DNA from: Simiduia sp. 21SJ11W-1
Lineage (GTDB): Bacteria > Pseudomonadota > Gammaproteobacteria > Pseudomonadales > Cellvibrionaceae
Reading direction: 5' to 3'
Assembly (NCBI RefSeq): GCF_024138675.1
Contig: NZ_CP090959.1
Location: 1,116,001-1,180,000 of the forward strand
Length of the DNA: 64,000 nt
Within the stretch, counting starts at the first letter, position 1. Every line of letters starts with the position of its first letter. Positions 42,344 to 57,239 of the stretch are shown piece after piece. The notes under the pieces were generated by a model. The model saw nothing but the letters and a program-made list of their open reading frames with translations, had not been told where the DNA came from and ran no database searches. Both the position numbers and the translations under genes were made by a program.

Positions 42344-42982
42344 ATGAGTTTGAATCTGGAAGATTTACGCCGCGACTACCTGATGGGTGGCCTGGATCAC
42401 AGCGATCTGAATGACGACCCCATCGCCCAGTTTGAGGTGTGGTTGCAGCAAGCCATAGACCTGCAACTAAAAGACCCTACGGCCATGACAGTGGCCACGG
42501 TAGATGCCAGCGGCCAGCCGTCGCAACGCATTGTGCTGCTGAAAAAGGTGGATCACGGTTTTGTGTTTTATACCAACTACGGTTCGCGCAAAGCCCAAGA
42601 GCTGAGCGCAAACCCTAAAGTGAGTTTGCACTTTCCCTGGCACGACATAGAACGGCAGGTGAAAATCTGTGGCGTGGCTGAAAAAGTCAGCGCGGCAGAA
42701 TCGGCCAAGTATTTTCTCTCGCGCCCGAAGGAAAGCCAGCTGGCAGCCTGGGCCTCTCACCAAAGTCACCCGGTCGCTACGCGGCAGTTGCTCATGCAGC
42801 AGGTGGCGCGCATGAAAGAAAAGTTCGCCGCAGGCCTTGTGCCTGCGCCCGATTTTTGGGGCGGCTACCGGGTAGTGCCCTCTGAAATCGAATTCTGGCA
42901 GGGCGGTGCCAACCGGCTGCACGACCGCTTCCAATACACCCGCACCCAGGGCGGCTGGCAACGCAAACGCTTGGCGCCCTAG
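42344..42982 (+). CDS. pdxH: Pyridoxamine 5'-phosphate oxidase
   Basis: 212 residues. FMN-site motif R-I-V-L-L-K-K-V-D and [10 protein letters not shown] are present, and the end W-Q-R-K-R-L-A-P is the usual PdxH C-terminus. It makes pyridoxal phosphate from pyridoxine or pyridoxamine phosphate. Independent gene, divergent from mobA. Confidence 0.97.
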
Positions 42983-47234: not shown

Positions 47235-47264
47235 TGAAAAAATGCCCCCGGCTTTTACCGGGGG
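47235..47264 (-). terminator. Intrinsic terminator of the secreted-protein genes
   Basis: CCCCCGG / CCGGGGG stem with a six-base loop. On the minus strand it is followed by CATTTTTT. It ends the transcript of the gene at 47289-47840. Confidence 0.9.
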
Positions 47265-47288: not shown

Positions 47289-47840
47289 TTAGTAGTTGGT
47301 TGCGAACTTGTTGTTAGATTCGTTGCTCTCGTCTATGGCTTTGTAGTAATCCACTTCAAACATCACGCGATCGCCGCGCGCAAAGTCGCCGGGGGCGAAT
47401 GTCACATCAATGTATTTTTGCTCGCCGGCACCAAAAACCGTTTTGATATTGGCGGCGCTGCCCCAGCTTTGGCCACCTTTTTTCTGATGGGTGCCCCAAA
47501 GCACCATTTCAGCATAGTGGGCGCCGCCCTTGTTTTTTACGGTCACCCGGTAGTTGCCTGGCGCACCCATGGGCTTGGCCGCAACAATGGTGAAATCCGG
47601 CTTTGGCGTGGCGGGTGCGCGTACGGCTTCACTTGTGGCGCGGGCCGGTTGCGTGCTTGCACCTGGCTCGCGACTTTTGGCCTGAATGGTCAGTGGTTTG
47701 CACTTGCCTATCCCGTTTTCAACAACCCATGTTTGACCCATAGGGCAGCGGTGCTTTTCGGGGTTGCCGGCGGCAAATGTCGCTGTGGCGGCGGCCAGCA
47801 GTGCAATGGCAGAGGTAATTTTGATGCTAGATGATTTCAT
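47289..47840 (-). CDS. Small exported protein with CARDB-like beta domain
   Basis: 183 residues with a signal peptide ending A-T-A-T-F-A. Two Cys (H-R-C-P-M-G-Q and G-K-C-K) form an N-terminal loop, then a low-complexity linker, then a beta-sandwich-like domain (F-T-I-V-A-A-K-P, V-T-V-K-N-K-G-G, V-D-Y-Y-K-A-I-D-E-S-N-E-S-N-N). The last motif is typical of CARDB domains. GGAG precedes the ATG. It follows the gene at 47890 by 49 bases; TGAACC is present at 47886-47881 but without a matching CGAC, so it may share the upstream promoter. Confidence 0.78.
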   Translation of the reverse strand: MKSSSIKITSAIALLAAATATFAAGNPEKHRCPMGQTWVVENGIGKCKPLTIQAKSREPGASTQPARATSEAVRAPATPKPDFTIVAAKPMGAPGNYRVTVKNKGGAHYAEMVLWGTHQKKGGQSWGSAANIKTVFGAGEQKYIDVTFAPGDFARGDRVMFEVDYYKAIDESNESNNKFATNY

Positions 47841-47889
47841 TTTGTAACTCCGGTTTAGCTGTAAGCGATGATTAAATAAAGGTTCACAT

Positions 47890-48279
47890 TTATTCCACAG
47901 GTACGTAGCGGAAGCACTTGTACGAGAGGTTTAACTTTGAGTTGTGGCTAGTGCCATCGGATGGCAGGCTCACAATGTCATTTTTAATATTGGTGACATC
48001 GGTATCCGGGTTGCAGGTGCGCACGATGGTTTCCGAACGGGCGCAGGTGTATTCGTACCAGGCTTTACCTTCGTGCTTGATCAGCTTTTTACTGACAGGC
48101 GTAAAGCCTTGGGCACAGGCTGCAGGTTTTGGAATGGCACCGGCCACTTGAACCTGAAATTTTGGCTTGGCACTGGTTGCATTGAGTGTGGGGTTCGCCA
48201 GTGATTGGGCGGTGATGAGTGCGCTGGCAATCAATCCGGCCATGGCGATGGTGTGGTGCAGTTTGCGCTGCTGTTTCAT
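47890..48279 (-). CDS. Small exported Cys-containing protein, unknown
   Basis: 129 residues, signal peptide ending A-Q-S-L-A-N. Four Cys in the mature part (A-A-C-A-Q-G-F, Y-T-C-A-R, R-T-C-N-P, Y-K-C-F-R) could form two disulfides. AAGGAGG precedes the ATG. A TGAACC-N16-CGAC element lies 85 bases upstream and is shared with two other small exported genes. Probably a surface or periplasmic effector of the ECF system. Confidence 0.75.
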   Translation of the reverse strand: MKQQRKLHHTIAMAGLIASALITAQSLANPTLNATSAKPKFQVQVAGAIPKPAACAQGFTPVSKKLIKHEGKAWYEYTCARSETIVRTCNPDTDVTNIKNDIVSLPSDGTSHNSKLNLSYKCFRYVPVE

Positions 48280-48363
48280 AGTAAGACCCTCCTTGGGCTT
48301 TGCGGTTAATGAGCCGTTGGGTTCTGCTGTTTTGCAGTGAACGCCTTGGCCCGTTACTTATGT

Positions 48364-48389
48364 GTCGCAGACCATTGGCAAACGGTTCA
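48364..48389 (-). promoter_or_regulatory. Candidate ECF sigma promoter (TGAACC-N16-CGAC)
   Basis: Minus-strand TGAACC at 48389-48384 and CGAC at 48367-48364, 16 bases apart, with an A/T tract just upstream. The -10-like part extends to CTGCGACACA. It drives the small exported gene at 47890-48279. Confidence 0.6.
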
Positions 48390-48478
48390 TATTTTTTTGC
48401 TGATGTTTCGCCTTGTCTCTATGGCCGCTGCAATCTTCCTTTTTGCACTGTCCCGGTTGTGAGTTCTACTTGTGAGTT

Positions 48479-50449
48479 CTACAGGGGTGCGTTACACAAG
48501 TCCCCTAAATCCGGGGTGCCCGTGGGCCAGAATTGGTTTACCTCTGGCGTCTGCATGCCTTCGTAAAGCGCCGTGGCGATGGCGGCGGCCACCAGCGGTG
48601 AGGCGAAAGAGGTGCCTGTTTGGTAGCGGCCTTGGCCGCGTTCGTTATACGTCCACACATCTTGCCCGGGCGCGCGCCAGAAAACCCTGTTGCCACCATT
48701 GGAAAGTGCCAGCAATCTTAATTGGTTATCGGTGGCACCCACGGCCTGCACTGCCGGGTAGGCCGCCGGATACATAGGGCGTTCAGCGCCACTGTTGCCC
48801 GCTGCAGCCACGAAGGTAACTTGTTTGGCGAGTTGGGTAATTGCTTGTGCCAGCAAGTCGCTGTGCTTGCCGCCAAAACTCATGTTGACCACCAAGGGCT
48901 TGAAGGCCGCGATTTTATCGAGGCCAATTAATAGCCAATCGGTGCGGGTTTCCATATTGCCGGTGGCGTCTTCGGCGAAAACATTCACGGCAAGCAGTTG
49001 CGCCTTGGGCAGCAGGCCCAGATCTTTGCCCACCATCAGCGTTGCCACACCGGTACCGTGCGGGTGGGGATCGGCGTCTTGTGCGGCCACGTGAACGCTT
49101 TGCACCCGGCCTTCAAAGACCGGCAACTGCGCGTTTACGGCGCTGTCTAGCAGAGCCAGACGGGGCGATTGGGGGCAGTGTGAGGGCAGCTGTGCGCCCA
49201 GTAACCGCTGTGCGTACTGGCGCTGTTCGCTGCGCTGTAACCGGTAGCGCTGATTGTTTTCTACCGGCCACTGGTTGGCAATTTGCGCTTTAACCGCCTC
49301 CAGATCCACTGAGTCGGGCACGCGGTAGGTGCTGAGCACCCAGCCAAGAGATGCCAGCGTGCGCCGGCTTTGAATGCGCAAGCCCCACTGGCCCAGGGCC
49401 CTTCGTTGTTGCTCGGCAATAGACATGTTTGGTGCCTGCAGTAGCAATTCTCGCAAGGGGGGCAGCCTGTCGTCGGGATTATCTTGCATCGGCTGTGGCC
49501 CCTGCGGCAGTGCAGCGCCCAGGAGGCTTGTACTGCGCACAATGGGGGCCGCTTCTCGAGGGCCGCTTTGGCGCGCAGCCGGTGGGCTGGGATGGGGTGC
49601 ATCTGTTGCTGTGGCCTGTGGATTTGGTTGGCCTGTGGGGGCGCTATCACCCGGCCTTGCTGTCTTAGCAGTGGCGGCTGGTTGTTGATGGGTTGGTGCT
49701 GTTCGTTGCGCGGCAGTATTGGCCGCGCTTTCGGGTGTCGTATCGGGTGTCGTATTGGGCGTTGTATGAGATGTTGTATCGGGCTTTGCAGCAGGTGCGG
49801 TAGCAGACGCTCTACCCGGTATTGTTCCTGGCGCTGTTTTGGGCGTTGTTGCGGGCGGCGTATCCGGCGCAGTGCCAGTGGCCGTTGGTGGTGAATTTTT
49901 TATTGGCGCTCGCTGTGTGTTTTGCGTTGTATTTTCCGCAGTATTTGGCGTTGTACCGGAATTAGAACCGGAAGTAGAACCTGAAGTTGTACCTGAAGCT
50001 GCCTCTCGGGTTGGATCGCCCGTTGTAGTTTGTGCAGCATCGTCATTGGCGCCGGGGGCAGTTGCGCGCGTGGCTGTCAGCTGGGTGGCGGGCTTCTGGG
50101 GCGCTGTGCCCGGCACCCTTGCCGGGCCCTGTGATGTGCTGGTTGCCTCTGGTCGCGCGCTGGTAGCTGCAGTGCTTGCCGTGGGCATGGCCGTGCCTGT
50201 GGAAAAAGTGCTGGGCCTTGTTGTTGAGGTGAGTGTTGTTGTGGGTATTGTTGCGGATGTAGTAGTGGGTGTAGTTGATGTAGGTGTAGTTGATGTAGGT
50301 GTAGTTGATGTAGGTGTAGTTGAAGATGATGCTGTGGCTTCCGGTGTGCTTGCCGGGGCACTGGTGCCCGGCTCTGGCGTTTGTGCACTGGTGAGGTTTG
50401 CCGCCAAGAGCAGCGGCAAAACAAGCCACAGAGCGGCCATACATTTCAT
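48479..50449 (-). CDS. S8 subtilisin-type serine protease with long Thr/Pro-rich region
   Basis: 656 residues, signal peptide ending L-T-S-A-Q. Residues about 25-310 are Thr/Pro/Ala/Ser-rich low complexity with short repeats such as T-P-T-S-T. A small propeptide-like section (about 330-400) precedes the protease. The triad is visible: Asp near 435 (A-L-L-D-S-A), His near 464 (H-P-H-G-T-G-V), Ser near 614 (G-T-S-F-A-S-P), with the oxyanion Asn in A-A-A-G-N-S-G. Its start overlaps the anti-sigma stop by four bases. Cell-surface or secreted location is likely. Last gene of the operon. Confidence 0.9.
   Translation of the reverse strand: MKCMAALWLVLPLLLAANLTSAQTPEPGTSAPASTPEATASSSTTPTSTTPTSTTPTSTTPTTTSATIPTTTLTSTTRPSTFSTGTAMPTASTAATSARPEATSTSQGPARVPGTAPQKPATQLTATRATAPGANDDAAQTTTGDPTREAASGTTSGSTSGSNSGTTPNTAENTTQNTQRAPIKNSPPTATGTAPDTPPATTPKTAPGTIPGRASATAPAAKPDTTSHTTPNTTPDTTPESAANTAAQRTAPTHQQPAATAKTARPGDSAPTGQPNPQATATDAPHPSPPAARQSGPREAAPIVRSTSLLGAALPQGPQPMQDNPDDRLPPLRELLLQAPNMSIAEQQRRALGQWGLRIQSRRTLASLGWVLSTYRVPDSVDLEAVKAQIANQWPVENNQRYRLQRSEQRQYAQRLLGAQLPSHCPQSPRLALLDSAVNAQLPVFEGRVQSVHVAAQDADPHPHGTGVATLMVGKDLGLLPKAQLLAVNVFAEDATGNMETRTDWLLIGLDKIAAFKPLVVNMSFGGKHSDLLAQAITQLAKQVTFVAAAGNSGAERPMYPAAYPAVQAVGATDNQLRLLALSNGGNRVFWRAPGQDVWTYNERGQGRYQTGTSFASPLVAAAIATALYEGMQTPEVNQFWPTGTPDLGDLCNAPL
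50271..50322. repeat. 15-base tandem repeats inside the protease gene
   Basis: About 3.5 copies of a 15-base unit (plus-strand GTAGTTGATGTAGGT), encoding T-P-T-S-T blocks. The region probably changes length by slippage while staying in frame. Confidence 0.85.
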
Positions 50450-51036
50450 GGCAGCTCTGCCTCAATGGCGGCGTGCACCACGCCGGGCATTTCACCCAGT
50501 GCAGATTCAACTTGGCTGCGGTCGGTGTAGCCTGGCTGCGCTTTGGCAATAAAAATCCGCAAGATGCCAATGCTGCTTGGGCCATCAACAATGCGCGCAT
50601 GGTGTTGTGTGAGCGTGGCGGCCAGATCTTCCCAGCGCAGGTTCGCGTCCAGCTCCAGCTGAATAAGCCAGCCATTGCTGAGTGCACCCGCTTGGCCTGC
50701 TGCAAGCAAGGTGAAATCAGGTGCCGGTGCTGGCCGTGCGAGAATAATAAACTGCACACACAGTACCAAGGCCGCGGCACTCGCCATTGCAGGGCGCCAC
50801 CATTGAGGTTGCGCTTTGGGTGTGTTGAGTTCGCGTTTTAAGCGTGCCCAGCCGAGGTCTGATGCCTGGGCCTGGCCTTGGTGTTTTATTTGCTGTTGGA
50901 TAGCGCGCAGCGCCGCCAGTTCTGCACGCGCTTGTTCCGATTGTGCAAGCCAGGCATCCACGCGTTGCTTTTCTGCCTCAGTCAAACTGCCGTTCACATA
51001 CCAGGGCAATAGTTCGGATAAATCTTCAGTGTTCAT
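50446..51036 (-). CDS. Membrane anti-sigma factor with propeptide-like periplasmic domain
   Basis: 196 residues. Residues 1-70 form a helical cytoplasmic domain like zf-HC2 anti-sigma factors (L-L-P-W-Y-V-N-G-S-L-T-E-A-E), but without the zinc His/Cys ligands. One membrane helix lies at about 83-100. The periplasmic end (121-196: W-L-I-Q-L-E-L, then R-I-V-D-G-P-S-S-I-G-I-L-R-I-F-I, ending P-G-V-V-H-A-A) has the pattern of inhibitor I9/subtilisin propeptides. It sits between the sigma gene and the subtilisin gene, overlapping the latter. I infer that the protease recognises this domain. Confidence 0.78.
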   Translation of the reverse strand: MNTEDLSELLPWYVNGSLTEAEKQRVDAWLAQSEQARAELAALRAIQQQIKHQGQAQASDLGWARLKRELNTPKAQPQWWRPAMASAAALVLCVQFIILARPAPAPDFTLLAAGQAGALSNGWLIQLELDANLRWEDLAATLTQHHARIVDGPSSIGILRIFIAKAQPGYTDRSQVESALGEMPGVVHAAIEAELP

Positions 51037-51097
51037 ATTGAACGTCCTTAGGCTAAATTACGTCTCATGCCTTGGTCGGTTTCATACCGCCCGGGGT

Positions 51098-51637
51098 TCA
51101 TTGGTTTGCCAAGCAGCGCATCAGCAGATTTTTTGCTTGCATCATTCGCGTTTTTACCGTGCCTGTTGGAATTTGCATGACCTCTGCAATTTCCGTGTAG
51201 GGCATCTCTTCAAAAAAGGCGAGCCAAACCACCTCTTTGAGTTTTGCTTTTAATGCATCAACACAGGTGCGCACACTGGCGGCATCTTGCGAAGCGCTGG
51301 CGGCAGCAAATAAATCGCAATCGCAACTGAGATCTTCGTGCAGGCTGATGTCTTCCTGATCCTCATGGCGACGCTTGGCGCGCAGCGCATCAATGGCTTT
51401 AAAGCGCGCCATGCTAAACAACCAGGTGCGCACACGGGCCTCGCCCTGAAAGCTGGCGCCTTTGTGCCACACCTCTAGCATCACGGTGTTGATCACTTCT
51501 GCAATGTCGGCGGGGTTGTGCAGCGTGCGTTGTAGAAACGCCGACAGGGCGCCAGCATGCCGGCGATAGAAACGCTCCATGGCTTGTTGGTCGCCCTTGA
51601 CGATGGCGGCTAATAGCAGTTCGTCTGAATCCGACAC
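51098..51637 (-). CDS. ECF RNA polymerase sigma factor
   Basis: 179 residues from a GTG at 51637, chosen for GGAG and AAGG just upstream; the frame is open further but overlaps the preceding gene. Region 2 (A-E-V-I-N-T-V-M-L-E-V-W, T-W-L-F-S-M-A-R-F-K-A-I-D) and region 4 (Y-T-E-I-A-E-V-M-Q-I-P-T-G-T-V-K-T-R) are complete. It is followed by its anti-sigma gene. The TGAACC-N16-CGAC promoters of nearby small exported genes are its likely targets. Confidence 0.93.
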   Translation of the reverse strand: MSDSDELLLAAIVKGDQQAMERFYRRHAGALSAFLQRTLHNPADIAEVINTVMLEVWHKGASFQGEARVRTWLFSMARFKAIDALRAKRRHEDQEDISLHEDLSCDCDLFAAASASQDAASVRTCVDALKAKLKEVVWLAFFEEMPYTEIAEVMQIPTGTVKTRMMQAKNLLMRCLANQ

Positions 51638-51641
51638 AGCC

Positions 51642-53549
51642 TTACTCCGGTTGATAGACAAATGCGTAATCGGCGCTGGCTGCGAGCATTTTACCAGCAC
51701 TGTTGTGGGCGGTAATGCGCCACAGGTAGCGTTGGCCCGGGTTCAGTTTGCTGCGCACCAATTCTGACAGGGGCGATTGGGTTACCGAGTTTGGCAGCAC
51801 CATACCCACCACAAATTGTGGCTCGCCTGACTGGCCCACCGTTGGCGTGGCACTTGTGATGGGCGCCTGATGATGCAGCGCAAAAATTTGCAATTGATAT
51901 ACGGCGGCGCCAGTGACCGTGGGCCAACGAAAGGGCGTTTGCGCGCTTACCGCTTGTTGGCTGGGCGAGAGCCCGGTCAATGCCAGTAAGCCCTGTTGCG
52001 CCTGCACTTGGTAGCCTGCATCTATCACCCACTCCTGCACCGGGCATTGGGGATCTGTGGCAACCTCTTCGGTGATCAGGTTTCTGTTGGTCACGCAAAA
52101 ACGCAGCAGGTATTTACCGGCCCGCTGTGTGGGCAGCGCTGGGCTTTCCAGCTGAATGCGTTGTGTGCCCGTTACCTGACGCCGCACAAGGGCCAGAGTT
52201 TTAAACAGCGGCAGCGCTTCGGTGCTGCCGGGTTCGGCCAGCTGCCAGCGGCCTTCAAGCAAGCCTGAACCGCTGTAGCTGACGGTAAGCTGTGCTGTGA
52301 GCGCCTCGTTTTCTTTCACCAGTGCCAGGTCGTTACCTGTATCAAAGGCCAGTTGTAGCCCCCGCACCTGCAACTCACCCGGGGAGCCTGTGCGCGCGGC
52401 GTCGAGCGCGCTGCGATTAACCAGCAAGGTCATGTAGGCGCGGGTATTGCCGCCGCCAATGGGGTCGGAGAACACCCGCTCAATCACCAGGCGCGAGCTG
52501 TTGCTGGCGAGCAGTGTTTGCATTAAATCGGTGCCGAGCGCGAGCGTTTCGCTAAATAAAAACGGCCCGCTGCCGGGCGCACTTAGCACGCCGCCTAAGT
52601 TTGCCACCAGCGCGCCATTGGCGGGGTTTACAATGCGCGCGCTCGTTGAAACTACGCCGTTGGTGTGGCCGCTGCCGGTACTGACTTGCCAGCTGAGTTG
52701 TACGGAATTTTCTTGGCTGGCATACACCTGCCGCTGCATGGGTGAAACCCGCGCGGCGGTGAAATTGCCCTGCACGGGAATGATCAACAGGTGCGAGGCC
52801 TGTACGTTATCGCCGGTACCACTGTCGGTAAAGGTGCGATCAATACGTACCTGGCTGATATTTTGCGATTGCCAGCTGCGTACCTGGGCGCTGCTGATCA
52901 TCAAATTTTCAGACAAATTATAGGGTGCCGCACCGGTGCCGTTCAGGGTGCTGCCCAGGGTGCCAAGCACTTGGCCTGTGGCGGGGTTCACCAATTGCCC
53001 CGGCGCGCTGGAGACGCCTGCCGTGTAGGTGGGGGTGGCGGTTACCTGCCAGGTGATGGGCAATAAATTGTTATTCACGGCATTGAGTGTGGATTGGGCG
53101 GGCGTGACGCCGGCGGCACTGATGCTGCCACGGGCAGGCACGTTAAGTGTCAGCGTGCCCACCACCTGGCGGCCAATGCCGTCTGAAAAAATGCGACGCG
53201 CCTCAATTTGGGTAACGCCCGCACTTTGCCAGCTCACCACTTGTGCCGCACTAATGCTCAGGGTTTCAGTGAAATTAAACGGGCCGCTGCCGGCTTGGTT
53301 CAAAGTGCCGCCGAAACTTCCGAGCACATTGAGCGTGGTGGCATCCAGCAGTTGCCCGGGGTTGGAATTGGCGCCACTGCTGTGGGATGCATCTGCTGCT
53401 ACCGTCCAGTTAACAACCAGTGCATTGTTGTTGGCGGTGTTGAGGGTTGCACTGCCGGGCGACACGCTAACGCCCGTGAGCAGGGCAGCGGCGGGCATGG
53501 CCCAGGCCACGAGGGCGAAACACAAAATGTGCGAGATACGTTTCATCAT
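51642..53549 (-). CDS. Exported protein with three tandem Ig-like repeats
   Basis: 635 residues, signal peptide ending M-P-A-A-A. Three related repeats of about 115-118 residues follow (about 24-140, 141-258, 259-375), each with a V-x-P start, an L-x-W-x-V strand, G-x-L-x-G/A-x-G and S-E-x-L/T-E-T-L stretches and a final x-R-x-F-S/T-D. The rest contains a Cys pair and further beta domains (W-P-T-V-T-G-A-A-V-Y-Q-L-Q-I). No known family named. Its start is 2 bases after the barrel gene ends, and the sigma gene follows after 4 bases. Likely a surface partner of the barrel. Confidence 0.8.
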   Translation of the reverse strand: MMKRISHILCFALVAWAMPAAALLTGVSVSPGSATLNTANNNALVVNWTVAADASHSSGANSNPGQLLDATTLNVLGSFGGTLNQAGSGPFNFTETLSISAAQVVSWQSAGVTQIEARRIFSDGIGRQVVGTLTLNVPARGSISAAGVTPAQSTLNAVNNNLLPITWQVTATPTYTAGVSSAPGQLVNPATGQVLGTLGSTLNGTGAAPYNLSENLMISSAQVRSWQSQNISQVRIDRTFTDSGTGDNVQASHLLIIPVQGNFTAARVSPMQRQVYASQENSVQLSWQVSTGSGHTNGVVSTSARIVNPANGALVANLGGVLSAPGSGPFLFSETLALGTDLMQTLLASNSSRLVIERVFSDPIGGGNTRAYMTLLVNRSALDAARTGSPGELQVRGLQLAFDTGNDLALVKENEALTAQLTVSYSGSGLLEGRWQLAEPGSTEALPLFKTLALVRRQVTGTQRIQLESPALPTQRAGKYLLRFCVTNRNLITEEVATDPQCPVQEWVIDAGYQVQAQQGLLALTGLSPSQQAVSAQTPFRWPTVTGAAVYQLQIFALHHQAPITSATPTVGQSGEPQFVVGMVLPNSVTQSPLSELVRSKLNPGQRYLWRITAHNSAGKMLAASADYAFVYQPE

Positions 53550-53551
53550 GG

Positions 53552-55561
53552 TTACAAGTCTCCTGCCGACCATGCCAGTTCAATACCTGCATGGGCCGAC
53601 CATTGTTCCTGGGCCCAGGCAAAGGCGCGGTTGTCTTGCCGCCCGTAGCTGCCACGCAAATACACATTGACGCCGGGCGTGTTGCCCTTGGCTGCCAGTG
53701 CCATCCAGGTGAGCTGCCCGTTGCCGAAATGGCTTAAAAAGTCGTCTTCAATAAACGCCGGATTCGCAAGCTCGCTGCGGTCTGCGCCGTAGTTGTAATT
53801 CAAACTCAGTACCAGCTTTTCGGGGATCAATTGCAGCAGGGTATCAATACCCAGGTTGCGGTTGTAATAGGTATCCCCGAGGTCTGTTTGGGTTTGTCGG
53901 TTGAACTGCGTAAAAAGGTTCACATTGGCGCGGGTTGAGGGCATCCAGCTCATGTTCAGGCCGAGCATGCGGTTTTCCATGTCGGAGCCTGGTTGGTAGA
54001 TGTCGTAGCCGTTAAGCGATACGGCTTCGGAGCGGTCGTCGAACCGGGTGCTGGCCCACTGCAGGCCCCAGCTCCAGGTTGATTGGCTGAAGTTCACACT
54101 GACGCTTTGCTCGTGGGTGAGGTTGTCCAGATCAAAGCCCACGGTCTGTGCGTTGCTGTCTGGTTGGCTGTGTTGGGTTTCGCTAATGTACAGCGTTGCC
54201 GAGGGCGCGCCGAGCACCGCCAATGCGCTGCCGGGCTCGAGCATGGGTACATAATTGACGGTGAGCATTTGGCGCGCGAGAGTTTGGGTGGGCAGTGCGG
54301 GATCATCGGCCTGGTTATTTTGCTCGCTCGACCACTCGAAATTGAGGTTGATACTCTGGCGCCCCAGCTGCGTGACCAACCTGTTTAACGCCACATCGCC
54401 GGGCAGGGTGAGGTTGCCCAGGCTGTAAAATTGCGCCCCCACTTTTTGGTGTTGTAGCGTTGCCGTCCAATAATCCAGCGGGCCAGTGGGCAGTGCGCCA
54501 GATTGCAGGCGGGCCAGCAATTGCAGCGCGGAATCTTGCTCGGCATCGGCGCCGAGATCGATGCCATCGCTATCAAAGCGCGACTCGGCGTACTCTGCAT
54601 GCAGCCAGATAGATTGCTCCATCAAATAGGAATCGAGGCCCAGATTCCAGCTGTCGCCGCCGTAAACAACCGGGTCGCCCGGCGCATATACCCCGGCGCC
54701 GCCGAGCTGGGTTTTACCATCCACATACCCGAGCTTTAGCATCAGTGCATCGCCGGCCAAGTGGGTGTTCAGTGTGGCGCCTTGTCCACGCAGTGTTTGG
54801 CCTGGCAGCACCAGTGCCTCATCTACGCGCGTGCTCGGTTCGCTATTGACCTTAAACAAGCGCAGCTCGGTGCTCTGGCTGGCATTGCCAATGCGCACTT
54901 CGGCGCCGCGCCGCTGAAACATGGAAAACAACAAGTCTTGCTGTTCAATGCGCACATTGCCCACCATGGCACCGGCGCTGAGTGTTGCGCCTTGGTGGCG
55001 GGCCTCAATGCGGTAACTGGGTAGCGCCCATTCTGTGCCGGTGTTGTTGCCCAGGTTTTCGCTGGTGCTGTCGTAGAGGGCGTCCAACTCCACTGTGAGG
55101 CTCAGGTTGTCTTGCAGTTGTGCCGCGCGCAGTGCCCAGCCGCCTTGGCTCGCCAGATGGCGGGCGGCTTGGTAGTCGTCGGGTTCTGATGCGTCTAGCC
55201 GGTAGCTGCTGTCGAGTGACAGCTGGCTGCTCCACTGGCCACTTGGCTCACTGGGGGCGGTAATGGTGAGGACTTGATCCAGCAGGCTTTGGATATCGCC
55301 ATTGGGCGCGAAGGCCAATACCTGCAGTTCGTAGTCACCGGGTGCCAGCGCCATATCCAGGCGCAGTTGCAGTTGCCCATCAGCGATAGTTGCAAACGGG
55401 GTGACGTCGTAACCGCCCAATTCCACCGCCAGGCTGGATTCGGGTGAGGGCAGTTGAGGCAAATTCAAAGCCAGCTGAGTGGTGTTTGCTGCCTGCCCGT
55501 TGACGGCTGCCAATGAAAGGCAAAGTGCCAGCAATAGCCGGCGAAAGTGTGAGTGTTTCAT
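53552..55561 (-). CDS. Outer-membrane beta-barrel protein, operon head
   Basis: 669 residues, signal peptide ending V-N-G-Q-A-A. A short N-terminal beta domain (about 28-115) precedes a long chain of alternating strands with many Asn, Gln and aromatics (e.g. S-L-N-Y-N-Y-G-A-D-R, F-T-Q-F-N-R-Q-T-Q-T), the pattern of a barrel of over 16 strands. It is not a TonB receptor: no plug or TonB box is seen. ATG at 55561 has GGGGAATT upstream. It shares the operon with the Ig-repeat protein, sigma, anti-sigma and protease. Confidence 0.78.
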   Translation of the reverse strand: MKHSHFRRLLLALCLSLAAVNGQAANTTQLALNLPQLPSPESSLAVELGGYDVTPFATIADGQLQLRLDMALAPGDYELQVLAFAPNGDIQSLLDQVLTITAPSEPSGQWSSQLSLDSSYRLDASEPDDYQAARHLASQGGWALRAAQLQDNLSLTVELDALYDSTSENLGNNTGTEWALPSYRIEARHQGATLSAGAMVGNVRIEQQDLLFSMFQRRGAEVRIGNASQSTELRLFKVNSEPSTRVDEALVLPGQTLRGQGATLNTHLAGDALMLKLGYVDGKTQLGGAGVYAPGDPVVYGGDSWNLGLDSYLMEQSIWLHAEYAESRFDSDGIDLGADAEQDSALQLLARLQSGALPTGPLDYWTATLQHQKVGAQFYSLGNLTLPGDVALNRLVTQLGRQSINLNFEWSSEQNNQADDPALPTQTLARQMLTVNYVPMLEPGSALAVLGAPSATLYISETQHSQPDSNAQTVGFDLDNLTHEQSVSVNFSQSTWSWGLQWASTRFDDRSEAVSLNGYDIYQPGSDMENRMLGLNMSWMPSTRANVNLFTQFNRQTQTDLGDTYYNRNLGIDTLLQLIPEKLVLSLNYNYGADRSELANPAFIEDDFLSHFGNGQLTWMALAAKGNTPGVNVYLRGSYGRQDNRAFAWAQEQWSAHAGIELAWSAGDL

Positions 55562-55665
55562 GCAATTCCCCTTGCGTGAACGAGTGCTTGAGCACCCGCT
55601 CGCCCCTGTAATTCCGTGTTCTAAAACCTTTGGCGTGACTGCCAAGTCAGTGGCTGGGCGTGAAT

Positions 55666-55671
55666 ATTATA
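55666..55671 (-). promoter_or_regulatory. Possible sigma70 -10 box of the barrel-to-protease operon
   Basis: Minus-strand TATAAT is a perfect -10 hexamer about 105 bases before the barrel-gene ATG. The region upstream has only a weak -35, and the TGAACC-N16-CGAC element is absent here, so the operon may be under housekeeping control. Confidence 0.35.
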
Positions 55672-55742
55672 CTGATGTTCCAATTATGCAAGTTGGGCGC
55701 TGAGGCCGCGTCGATCCACAGGTTTCTCTTTAAGAGCGCCGG

Positions 55743-55776
55743 AGCCCTGCACGCCGGTTTGACGGCGGGCAGGGCT
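55743..55776. terminator. Hairpin downstream of a small exported gene
   Basis: AGCCCTGC / GCAGGGCT arms enclose CGCCG / CGGCG, a long hairpin without a T run on the minus strand. It may end or protect the 3' end of the transcript from 55794-56300. Confidence 0.5.
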
Positions 55777-55793
55777 GCGTAAAACCTTCAACA

Positions 55794-56300
55794 CTAGAAG
55801 GAGCAAACGGCTTCGTTTTGATCGCCGGTGGCTTGGCCGCCCTGGCTTTCACACAAGTACATAAACAAGTTACAGGTTGAGTTTTCGCCGTTGTACGAGC
55901 AGCAAACGCCACCGGCACAGTCGGCAATTTCATACTTGGGCATAGACTGGGGCGCCGCTACCTGATTGGCGCCACTGGGCGTAGCCGGTTTTGCACCGGG
56001 AATGGGGCGCCCGCTGCGGTGGTGCTGCATGAGCAGGCGGTCGAAGTCCCGTGCTTTCAGTACGCGCTTTGCACTTTGTGGTGCTGCCCGCATGGGCGTT
56101 GCGCGTGGTGCCGGGGTTGCCTGTGCCTTTTGAATGGCGGGCAACAGCAAGCCCTTGGCCTGGTTGCACTCGGGTGAAACAACTTTGCTATCTGCGGGTG
56201 TCGGGCAGGGTTTGGCGACTTGGCGATCGGTGTTGTCGGCCAGTGCCAAATTGGCGCCGCAGGTAAATAGGGCCGCGATAAAAAGTGAACGCATAAACAT
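55794..56300 (-). CDS. Small exported Cys-rich protein, unknown
   Basis: 168 residues with a signal peptide ending A-N-L-A-L-A. A Pro/Ala-rich middle is followed by a Cys-rich end (I-A-D-C-A-G-G-V-C-C-S-Y, S-T-C-N-L, Y-L-C-E-S, A-V-C-S-F), six Cys that could make three disulfides. AAGGAG precedes the ATG at 56300. Its upstream region has a TGAACC-N16-CGAC element. No family recognised; a secreted effector or surface protein is likely. Confidence 0.75.
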   Translation of the reverse strand: MFMRSLFIAALFTCGANLALADNTDRQVAKPCPTPADSKVVSPECNQAKGLLLPAIQKAQATPAPRATPMRAAPQSAKRVLKARDFDRLLMQHHRSGRPIPGAKPATPSGANQVAAPQSMPKYEIADCAGGVCCSYNGENSTCNLFMYLCESQGGQATGDQNEAVCSF

Positions 56301-56358
56301 GATCTTTATCTCCTTGTGAATGATCGGGTCGCACGGTTCTGTGCGCCGTTGTGAGTAG

Positions 56359-56384
56359 GTCGCAGGTGCGCCTTCAATGGTTCA
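56359..56384 (-). promoter_or_regulatory. Candidate ECF sigma promoter (TGAACC-N16-CGAC)
   Basis: Minus-strand TGAACC at 56384-56379 and CGAC at 56362-56359, spacing 16, preceded by an A tract. The -10-like part reads CTGCGACCTA. It lies about 60 bases before the Cys-rich gene's ATG. Confidence 0.65.
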
Positions 56385-56667
56385 TTTTTTCTTGTTAATT
56401 CACCGATCACGATGCAACTACGGCAACAGCCATCAATATCTATGGGCGTTATTGCTCGAAAAGCCGGTAGCAGCCATTTTAGGGCTTATGGCCTGAGTTG
56501 ATATGGGCAATAGGAAATAAGCAGGGCTGCACTTATCAGGATTTAAAATTAACCCGAGGTGGTGCGGTGGGCGTACCTGACAAAACTTAAGAAAGTATGA
56601 GGGGGCCGTGGCGGCTGTGAGCAGTGCCGGTTTTAAAGGCGATAGTAGGTGGTAGTAGGCGTTAGAA

Positions 56668-56694
56668 GGCGCCAACACCTTGGGTGTTGGCGCC
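56668..56694. terminator. Perfect 12-bp stem hairpin
   Basis: GGCGCCAACACC and its exact complement with a three-base loop (TTG), 33 bases after the stop codon of the minus-strand gene at 56727. The flanking T content is modest (minus strand TTCTAACG), so it may be a terminator or a 3' protective hairpin. Confidence 0.65.
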
Positions 56695-56726
56695 TGTTTG
56701 CGAGCTGCTGGCCGGGCTTTGCCTGA

Positions 56727-57176
56727 TTACTTGAGCACGGTTACGTGGCCGCGGTGCTCGCACTTTTTACCCTTGTGTTCACCGGTGGTTACTTTGCCAC
56801 CCACGCAGCTGGATTTCTCTATCAGCTTGGGTGTTGCTTTATCGATGGGTTTGGCGATGCTTACGGGCTTGTGTTGGCGCTTACCGGTGGCCAGGCCGCT
56901 GGCGGCGTCTCGGCTCGGGCTGCCGATCCAGCGTGCGCGCCCTTGTTTCACTTCAAGTAATTGCCCGTCTTCACGTAAAAAGTAGCCGTTGCCCAAGCGC
57001 GATTCCTGGCCGGGTGCGGCATTCAGCGTGGGCCGGGTGGCGGCCAGCCTGTCGAAGCCCTGGTTGGCTTCGGCAACAGCCTTGGCTTCGCCGTCGATGC
57101 CATCAAATTTAATATAGGCTGCCGCATCACAAAATTGTGGGAGCAGAATAAACAGCAGTGGAATGATGAATTTCAT
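56727..57176 (-). CDS. Small exported protein with Hcp-like N-terminal motif
   Basis: 149 residues, signal peptide ending F-C-D-A-A. The mature N-terminus A-Y-I-K-F-D-G-I-D-G-E-A resembles the first strand of Hcp-type tube proteins (I-K-I-D-G-I-K-G-E-S), but the rest of the Hcp fold is missing. The C-terminus has a basic stretch with two Cys (S-S-C-V-G-G-K ... K-K-C-E-H-R-G-H). CAGGAGG precedes the ATG, and a TGAACC-N16-CGAC element lies about 40 bases upstream. Function unknown. Confidence 0.75.
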   Translation of the reverse strand: MKFIIPLLFILLPQFCDAAAYIKFDGIDGEAKAVAEANQGFDRLAATRPTLNAAPGQESRLGNGYFLREDGQLLEVKQGRARWIGSPSRDAASGLATGKRQHKPVSIAKPIDKATPKLIEKSSCVGGKVTTGEHKGKKCEHRGHVTVLK

Positions 57177-57213
57177 GGTACGCCTCCTGGCGATGTGTGG
57201 GTGTTATGGCTTT

Positions 57214-57239
57214 GTCGTGGCAAGTGCGGTGGCGGTTCA
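57214..57239 (-). promoter_or_regulatory. Candidate ECF sigma promoter (TGAACC-N16-CGAC)
   Basis: Minus-strand TGAACC at 57239-57234 and CGAC at 57217-57214, again 16 bases apart, preceded by a T/A tract. It sits in the 90-base gap between the HDOD gene end and the small exported gene. Confidence 0.6.

Follow-up and report, generated by a model that had tools for sequence, protein, structure and literature searches.

The 64,000-nucleotide stretch of Simiduia sp. 21SJ11W-1 analysed here (NZ_CP090959.1, positions 1,116,001 to 1,180,000; the window, whose own numbering is used throughout) encodes an extracytoplasmic function (ECF) sigma factor at 51098-51700 on the minus strand and contains four exact copies of the 26-base element TGAACC-N16-CGAC, all on that strand. 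From sequence comparison we put at about 0.88 the probability that the four elements serve a mostly local regulon as ECF promoters read by this sigma factor, whose minus-strand operon runs from a barrel outer-membrane protein (OMP) through an exported Ig/Fn3-like protein, the sigma factor and an anti-sigma factor to an S8 protease. Three of the copies had been seen by eye in an original prediction, and an exact pattern scan found them on the minus strand as described, each behind an A/T tract and 5' of a gene for a small exported protein: 57214-57239 for a protein of 149 amino acids (aa), 56359-56384 for a 168-aa protein and 48364-48389 for a 129-aa protein, with 37, 58 and 84 bases, respectively, between the end of CGAC and the ATG. 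The gene at 47289-47840, also as described, is preceded by a degenerate copy (47861-47886, minus strand) with TGAACC at 47881-47886 and TTAC at the CGAC position. Two other statements, that the operon lacks the element and that no further exact copy was to be seen, proved wrong: a fourth exact copy lies on the minus strand at 51075-51100, between the sigma and anti-sigma genes, with its CGAC ending 38 bases 5' of the anti-sigma ATG.

The -35 element of ECF promoters contains AAC and their -10 element CGAC; the sites described here have an AAC-containing -35, a CG.C-type -10 and a spacer of 16 bases, where 16-17 would be expected. The four copies compare with a chance expectation of 0.05 in the window, and none of 100 dinucleotide shuffles reached four. 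The whole 3.96 Mb genome contains 11 exact copies; the remaining seven all fall within open reading frames, and only the four local ones lie outside long reading frames and 5' of genes. These four are confined to 8.9 kb, a clustering with a Poisson p of ~2e-9 if the seven copies elsewhere set the rate.

A position matrix was derived from 42 sites of relatives with the window excluded; sites ~210 bases 5' of the Ig-like gene in several relatives, which fall in OMP coding sequence, were also kept out of the model. The matrix scored the elements of the 149-, 129- and 168-aa genes at 38.4, 34.0 and 27.9, the junction element at 13.4 and the degenerate copy, which is probably not a main promoter, at 9.2, compared with a maximum of 7.7 in the mirrored window. 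With a 40-sequence model, the three predicted sites were the only hits at E<0.03 in their own genome (E values of 6.3e-5, 7.9e-4 and 0.024 in the same order). Their first rank in both window and genome under a model built from relatives alone supports the proposal that they probably make up a local regulon under the ECF sigma factor. Flanks not used in selection are also conserved, namely the A/T tract and a T before TGAACC, and an A occupies the third base past CGAC in 83% of sites and in all four of those in the window. A plus-strand site at 42351 (score 13.5) coincides with the beginning of a coding frame and was set aside.

The model also predicts 11 sites in relatives outside the training loci (four in genome G156, two in G024 and one each in G023, G016, G090, G121 and G112), all of them 5' of signal-peptide-like proteins, one of 515 aa and the others of ~95-165 aa. 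Several of these proteins share domains or motifs with known targets, and one of the sites stands 5' of a G156 protein with an Hcp-like segment that was itself found independently by protein search. The word "local" in the original prediction is thus apt for this genome, where nearly all members are local, and too narrow for relatives with remote members. Among 144 genomes of the family, 12 of the 13 that encode the sigma factor gave hits at E<=0.001, versus 1 of the 131 in which it is absent, and at E<=0.05 the counts were 13 of 13 versus 8 of 131; the share of sigma-containing genomes with hits is partly by construction, the absence from genomes lacking the sigma factor is not.

Orthologous operons were found in Cellvibrionaceae (including Marinimicrobium alkaliphilum and Microbulbifer rhizosphaerae), Halomonadaceae, Pseudomonas, a Kangiellaceae metagenome-assembled genome (MAG), Thioalkalivibrio, a Nitrosomonadales MAG and, in part, Alphaproteobacteria. 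Across Pseudomonadota, these sigma/anti-sigma/S8 operons come with this element at an unchanged spacing, in support of the -35/-10 interpretation that had been suggested from layout. When the spacer k of TGAACC-N(k)-CGAC was varied from 10 to 22 in 34 related loci (0.52 Mb in all), k=16 yielded 62 copies and each other value 0-6; part of the 62 are coding coincidences, some of them in OMP coding sequence. In fixed intervals upstream of the OMP gene, the 16-base spacer is present in 10 of 26 loci, and the remaining spacers between 8 and 24 together account for one copy; upstream of the anti-sigma gene, the 16-base spacer is present in 7 of 30 loci versus three copies for other spacers. The element occupies either of these operon positions in 17 of 31 loci, and in relatives it stands 5' of the operon, between the sigma and anti-sigma genes, or 5' of flanking exported genes. 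It always points the same way relative to the gene, with the start codon ~30-113 bases away in most cases.

Two autogenous arrangements can be distinguished. In most Cellvibrionaceae relatives the element lies at the operon head, from where the sigma factor would amplify itself. In this genome, Pseudomonas, Chromatiales, Shimia and others it lies between the sigma and anti-sigma genes, so that the sigma factor would raise only its inhibitor and the protease. Both arrangements occur together in Thioalkalivibrio (L039). No relative was found in viral contigs, and Bradyrhizobium-type sigma factors recovered in the contig scan were rejected as a separate clade without the operon.

Several observations weigh against a regulon read by the linked sigma factor. 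The raw string has no genome-wide excess (11 copies versus 17 for a mirrored control over 3.96 Mb), so that the signal is carried by position and context; of the genome scan proposed with the original prediction, the local clustering 5' of genes was found and the enrichment of the raw string was not. The junction element scores far below the other three, level with the chance coding site at 42351, and is missing among the genome-wide hits of the model. Exact copies are missing from both operon positions in 14 of 31 loci, although several of these have near copies such as N17 in Pseudomonas, where the spacer is 16 or 17, and CAAC in L118. In addition, the anti-sigma assignment draws on weak profile matches and gene position. 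The genome also encodes ~13 other ECF-like candidates, and TGAACC-type -35 elements stand 5' of unrelated ECF genes at L156 (with CGTC) and in G059 (with CGAC). Another ECF factor encoded in this genome might accordingly be the main reader of the promoters, with the linked sigma factor a bystander or sharer. We consider this unlikely, since the element tracks the sigma operon across families, lies within or 5' of it in 17 of the 31 loci, and gives almost no strong hits where the sigma factor is missing (the 1 in 131 genomes noted above). Linkage and conservation together lead us to infer that the sigma factor at 51098-51700 is the one that reads the sites. The L156 site (G000:C1:2501863-2501892, minus strand) is a TGAACC-N16-CGTC string in the same genome, 5' of another ECF-like sigma gene, and is possibly the autogenous promoter of that gene, differing in its -10. 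The G059 site (contig C36, locus L220) is a strong TGAACC-N16-CGAC directly 5' of its ECF gene, from which it follows that the element is not exclusive to the present sigma family.

The raw counts, and the seven copies in coding sequence, would suit a string shared by chance or coding coincidence, as would the pooled TGAACC copies that lie in OMP coding sequence and the TGAACG-N16-CGAC that sigma-gene coding yields. This last variant, seemingly enriched in relatives, was discarded as a candidate because it is conserved coding sequence of the sigma gene. As a general account, coincidence is refuted by the clustering (p ~2e-9) and by the spacing, flanks and position that many genera have retained, and we give it practically no weight. 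Two fixed half-elements at a fixed distance would also suit an activator, and the element could be read as the two-half-site operator of another regulator and not as a -35/-10 pair. The half-sites, however, are neither inverted nor direct repeats of each other, the spacing, the AAC and the CGAC fit ECF promoters, and both the direction relative to the gene and, in most cases, the distance to its start are constrained; an operator is therefore very improbable, and ECF promoters remain the preferred reading of the element.

The sigma factor itself (200 aa) matches Pfam Sigma70_r2 (1.7e-12) and r4_2 (1.9e-13) and scores above the cut-off of TIGR02937, that is, it has regions 2 and 4 only, in the size range of about 170-200 aa of ECF factors. 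A GTG at 51637, just past the upstream stop, is a more likely start than the listed GTG at 51700. The gene ends in ..CAA TGA ACC.., its TGA stop codon being the first half of the -35 in 51075-51100; the same overlap is seen in L035, L037 and L039 (four of nine compared loci, including the window) and makes a compact example of a stop codon forming part of a putative anti-sigma promoter. The first operon gene (53552-55561, minus strand) encodes the OMP, for which AlphaFold predicts an N-terminal Ig-like domain and a barrel of ~26 strands (predicted local distance difference test, pLDDT, 81); Foldseek returned generic barrel matches only (ushers, LptD and Mtr barrels), and no element lies upstream of this gene in this genome. 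The following gene (51642-53573, minus strand) encodes a 643-aa exported protein with repeats and an Fn3-like C-terminus. The exported subtilisin-like S8 protease (48479-50449, minus strand) has a long low-complexity linker and matches Pfam Peptidase_S8 (1.1e-22) in its C-terminal part, and a defence-system scan gave generic subtilase matches only. Within the linker, positions 50263-50324 form a short tandem repeat encoding TTPTS-type units.

The putative anti-sigma factor (50446-51036, minus strand) adjoins the sigma gene and is recognised by zf-HC2 (0.009) and by an anti-sigma model (2.5e-8), and AlphaFold and alignment divide it into a cytoplasmic helical domain, a single membrane helix (residues 78-100) and a periplasmic domain (residues 122-195) of beta-alpha-beta-beta-alpha-beta order. 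The zinc-binding HxxxCxxC motif is absent from the aligned window protein and present in L035, L037, L038, L039 and L043; class I anti-sigma factors without zinc exist, hence this motif is not defining for all members. The periplasmic domain is modelled with a pLDDT above 90 as a ferredoxin-like domain, a kind of fold also found in I9-like subtilase propeptides. The ferredoxin-like folds that Foldseek listed included the propeptides of subtilisin and furin, with no match reaching E<=0.001, and hhalign against the prodomains of the operon S8 proteases gave E 0.0098, a value equalled by 1 of 60 column shuffles. A propeptide-like anti-sigma domain beside an S8 protease weakly suggests proteolytic signalling, and we put forward S8-dependent release of the sigma factor as a lead and not as a demonstration.

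The proposed circuit would work as follows. Three elements would drive the small exported proteins, one of them probably together with a CARDB gene as second cistron, and the element at 51075-51100 would drive the anti-sigma factor and S8 protease without the sigma factor itself. As the anti-sigma and not the sigma gene would be driven, active sigma factor would raise its own inhibitor, and we infer a self-limiting feedback. The one-pass anti-sigma factor probably tethers the sigma factor to the membrane and would release it once the periplasmic part is sensed or cut, for which the co-transcribed S8 protease and the barrel and Ig-like proteins are likely sensing or processing partners. It is tempting to speculate, although we think it rather doubtful, that the operon is a dedicated export and processing machine for small modular exported proteins, in which the sigma factor would switch on the substrates and the propeptide-like anti-sigma domain would be a target of the protease; the activity of the protease itself would then be the sensed signal.

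The system shares with the RseA/RsiW type (class I anti-sigma factors) an ECF sigma gene, an adjacent anti-sigma factor with cytoplasmic helical domain, membrane helix and periplasmic domain, an AAC in the -35, a CG.C in the -10 and an autogenous element, here 5' of the anti-sigma gene (51075-51100) and in relatives 5' of the operon or of that gene. It differs in the ferredoxin-like periplasmic domain, in the addition of an S8 protease, a large barrel and an Ig/Fn3-like protein to the operon, and in an autogenous element that serves the anti-sigma gene instead of the sigma gene. Of the systems described so far, the closest counterpart is RpoE6-EcfR6-SMa0142 of Sinorhizobium meliloti (ECF26), in which a serine protease gene beside the sigma and anti-sigma genes belongs to the regulon, a likely sigma-dependent anti-sigma promoter lies within the sigma reading frame and the prominent targets are local (PMC6180224). 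The serine protease and the internal anti-sigma promoter are common to both systems, but the ECF26 consensus is GGAATA / GT (PMC6180224), in contrast to TGAACC / CGAC here. With a different consensus and no sequence match, ECF26 was rejected as the parent group; the window sigma factor retrieved nothing from Sinorhizobium at E 1e-20, and a search of the plasmid collection with a related Shimia anti-sigma factor was negative at E 1e-3. In Bacteroidales, a sigma/anti-sigma pair is induced by the toxin BcpT (PMC9308784). Both cases link ECF control to an envelope regulon and to a barrel in the outer membrane; in Bacteroidales the barrel and the anti-sigma factor are one fused protein (PMC9308784), whereas here the two are separate genes.

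In a sigma factor tree, the window protein clusters with Pseudomonas sigma factors (support 99/96), apart from those of Cellvibrionaceae, and the Pseudomonas loci share the internal promoter between the sigma and anti-sigma genes. This grouping, together with the failure to find the sigma factor in three congeners, suggests horizontal gain. The control is of a known kind, and its protease-linked sensor is unusual. An observation of three sites made by eye thereby becomes a conserved regulon, with one sigma factor, one 26-base element and named targets in many genera, and provides a proposed promoter specificity for this ECF branch. Our literature search found no description of the system under TGAACC/CGAC promoters, anti-sigma/subtilase propeptide links or target peptide motifs; its results did not include the main ECF classification paper.

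The targets, including those in relatives, are mostly small exported proteins without a known family, with signal peptides called by eye and by a crude rule. They comprise Cys-containing AYEI/AYTVY-type proteins, CARDB proteins, an RTX protein and proteins with an Hcp-like segment, and have in common the short motifs RDAASGxxTGKR, xxDKSSP, DYNSSRSN, LRKRPGR, HVTVLK and LLPAIQK. Nearly all proteins bearing these motifs are preceded by the element in the loci examined, and the remote targets predicted by the model also carry them. The result is a defined set of exported proteins whose shared motifs raise the question of S8 processing. In the window, the 149-aa protein (56727-57176, minus strand) has a signal-peptide-like start, an Hcp-like segment of ~35 residues (RDAASGLATGKRQHKP...) and an HVTVLK tail common to other regulon proteins. 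Its match to Pfam T6SS_HCP (1.4e-6) covers residues 88-122 only; the segment aligns with Hcp of the type VI secretion system (PDB 5urw, 3he1), but only profile positions 32-70 of 129 are matched, which together with the N-terminus rules out a full-length Hcp. The 168-aa Cys-rich exported protein (55794-56300, minus strand) carries LLPAIQK, which recurs in a regulon protein of the Nitrosomonadales MAG. The 129-aa exported protein is encoded at 47890-48279 and the exported CARDB-domain protein (Pfam CARDB 1.2e-4) at 47289-47840, both on the minus strand. The CARDB gene starts 49 bases after that of the 129-aa protein and shares with it a downstream intrinsic-terminator-like hairpin, predicted at 47245-47264 (minus strand); given also its degenerate own element, it is probably co-transcribed from the promoter of the 129-aa gene.

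Exported proteins of ~125-165 aa with an Hcp-like segment (SPRDAASGLATGKRQHKP) also occur at L159-L172, in genus g2 of the same family, where neither the sigma factor was found in the genomes nor the element upstream of the Hcp-segment genes. Some regulon proteins terminate exactly at ...TGKR, for example SPRDAASGLPTGKR (L023:13165-13599, L024:13923-14351, L211 and L212), and these termini look like an Hcp-like segment shortened at a basic site. In G156, a regulon gene is tandemly duplicated together with its promoter element (L120:5839 and L120:6892).

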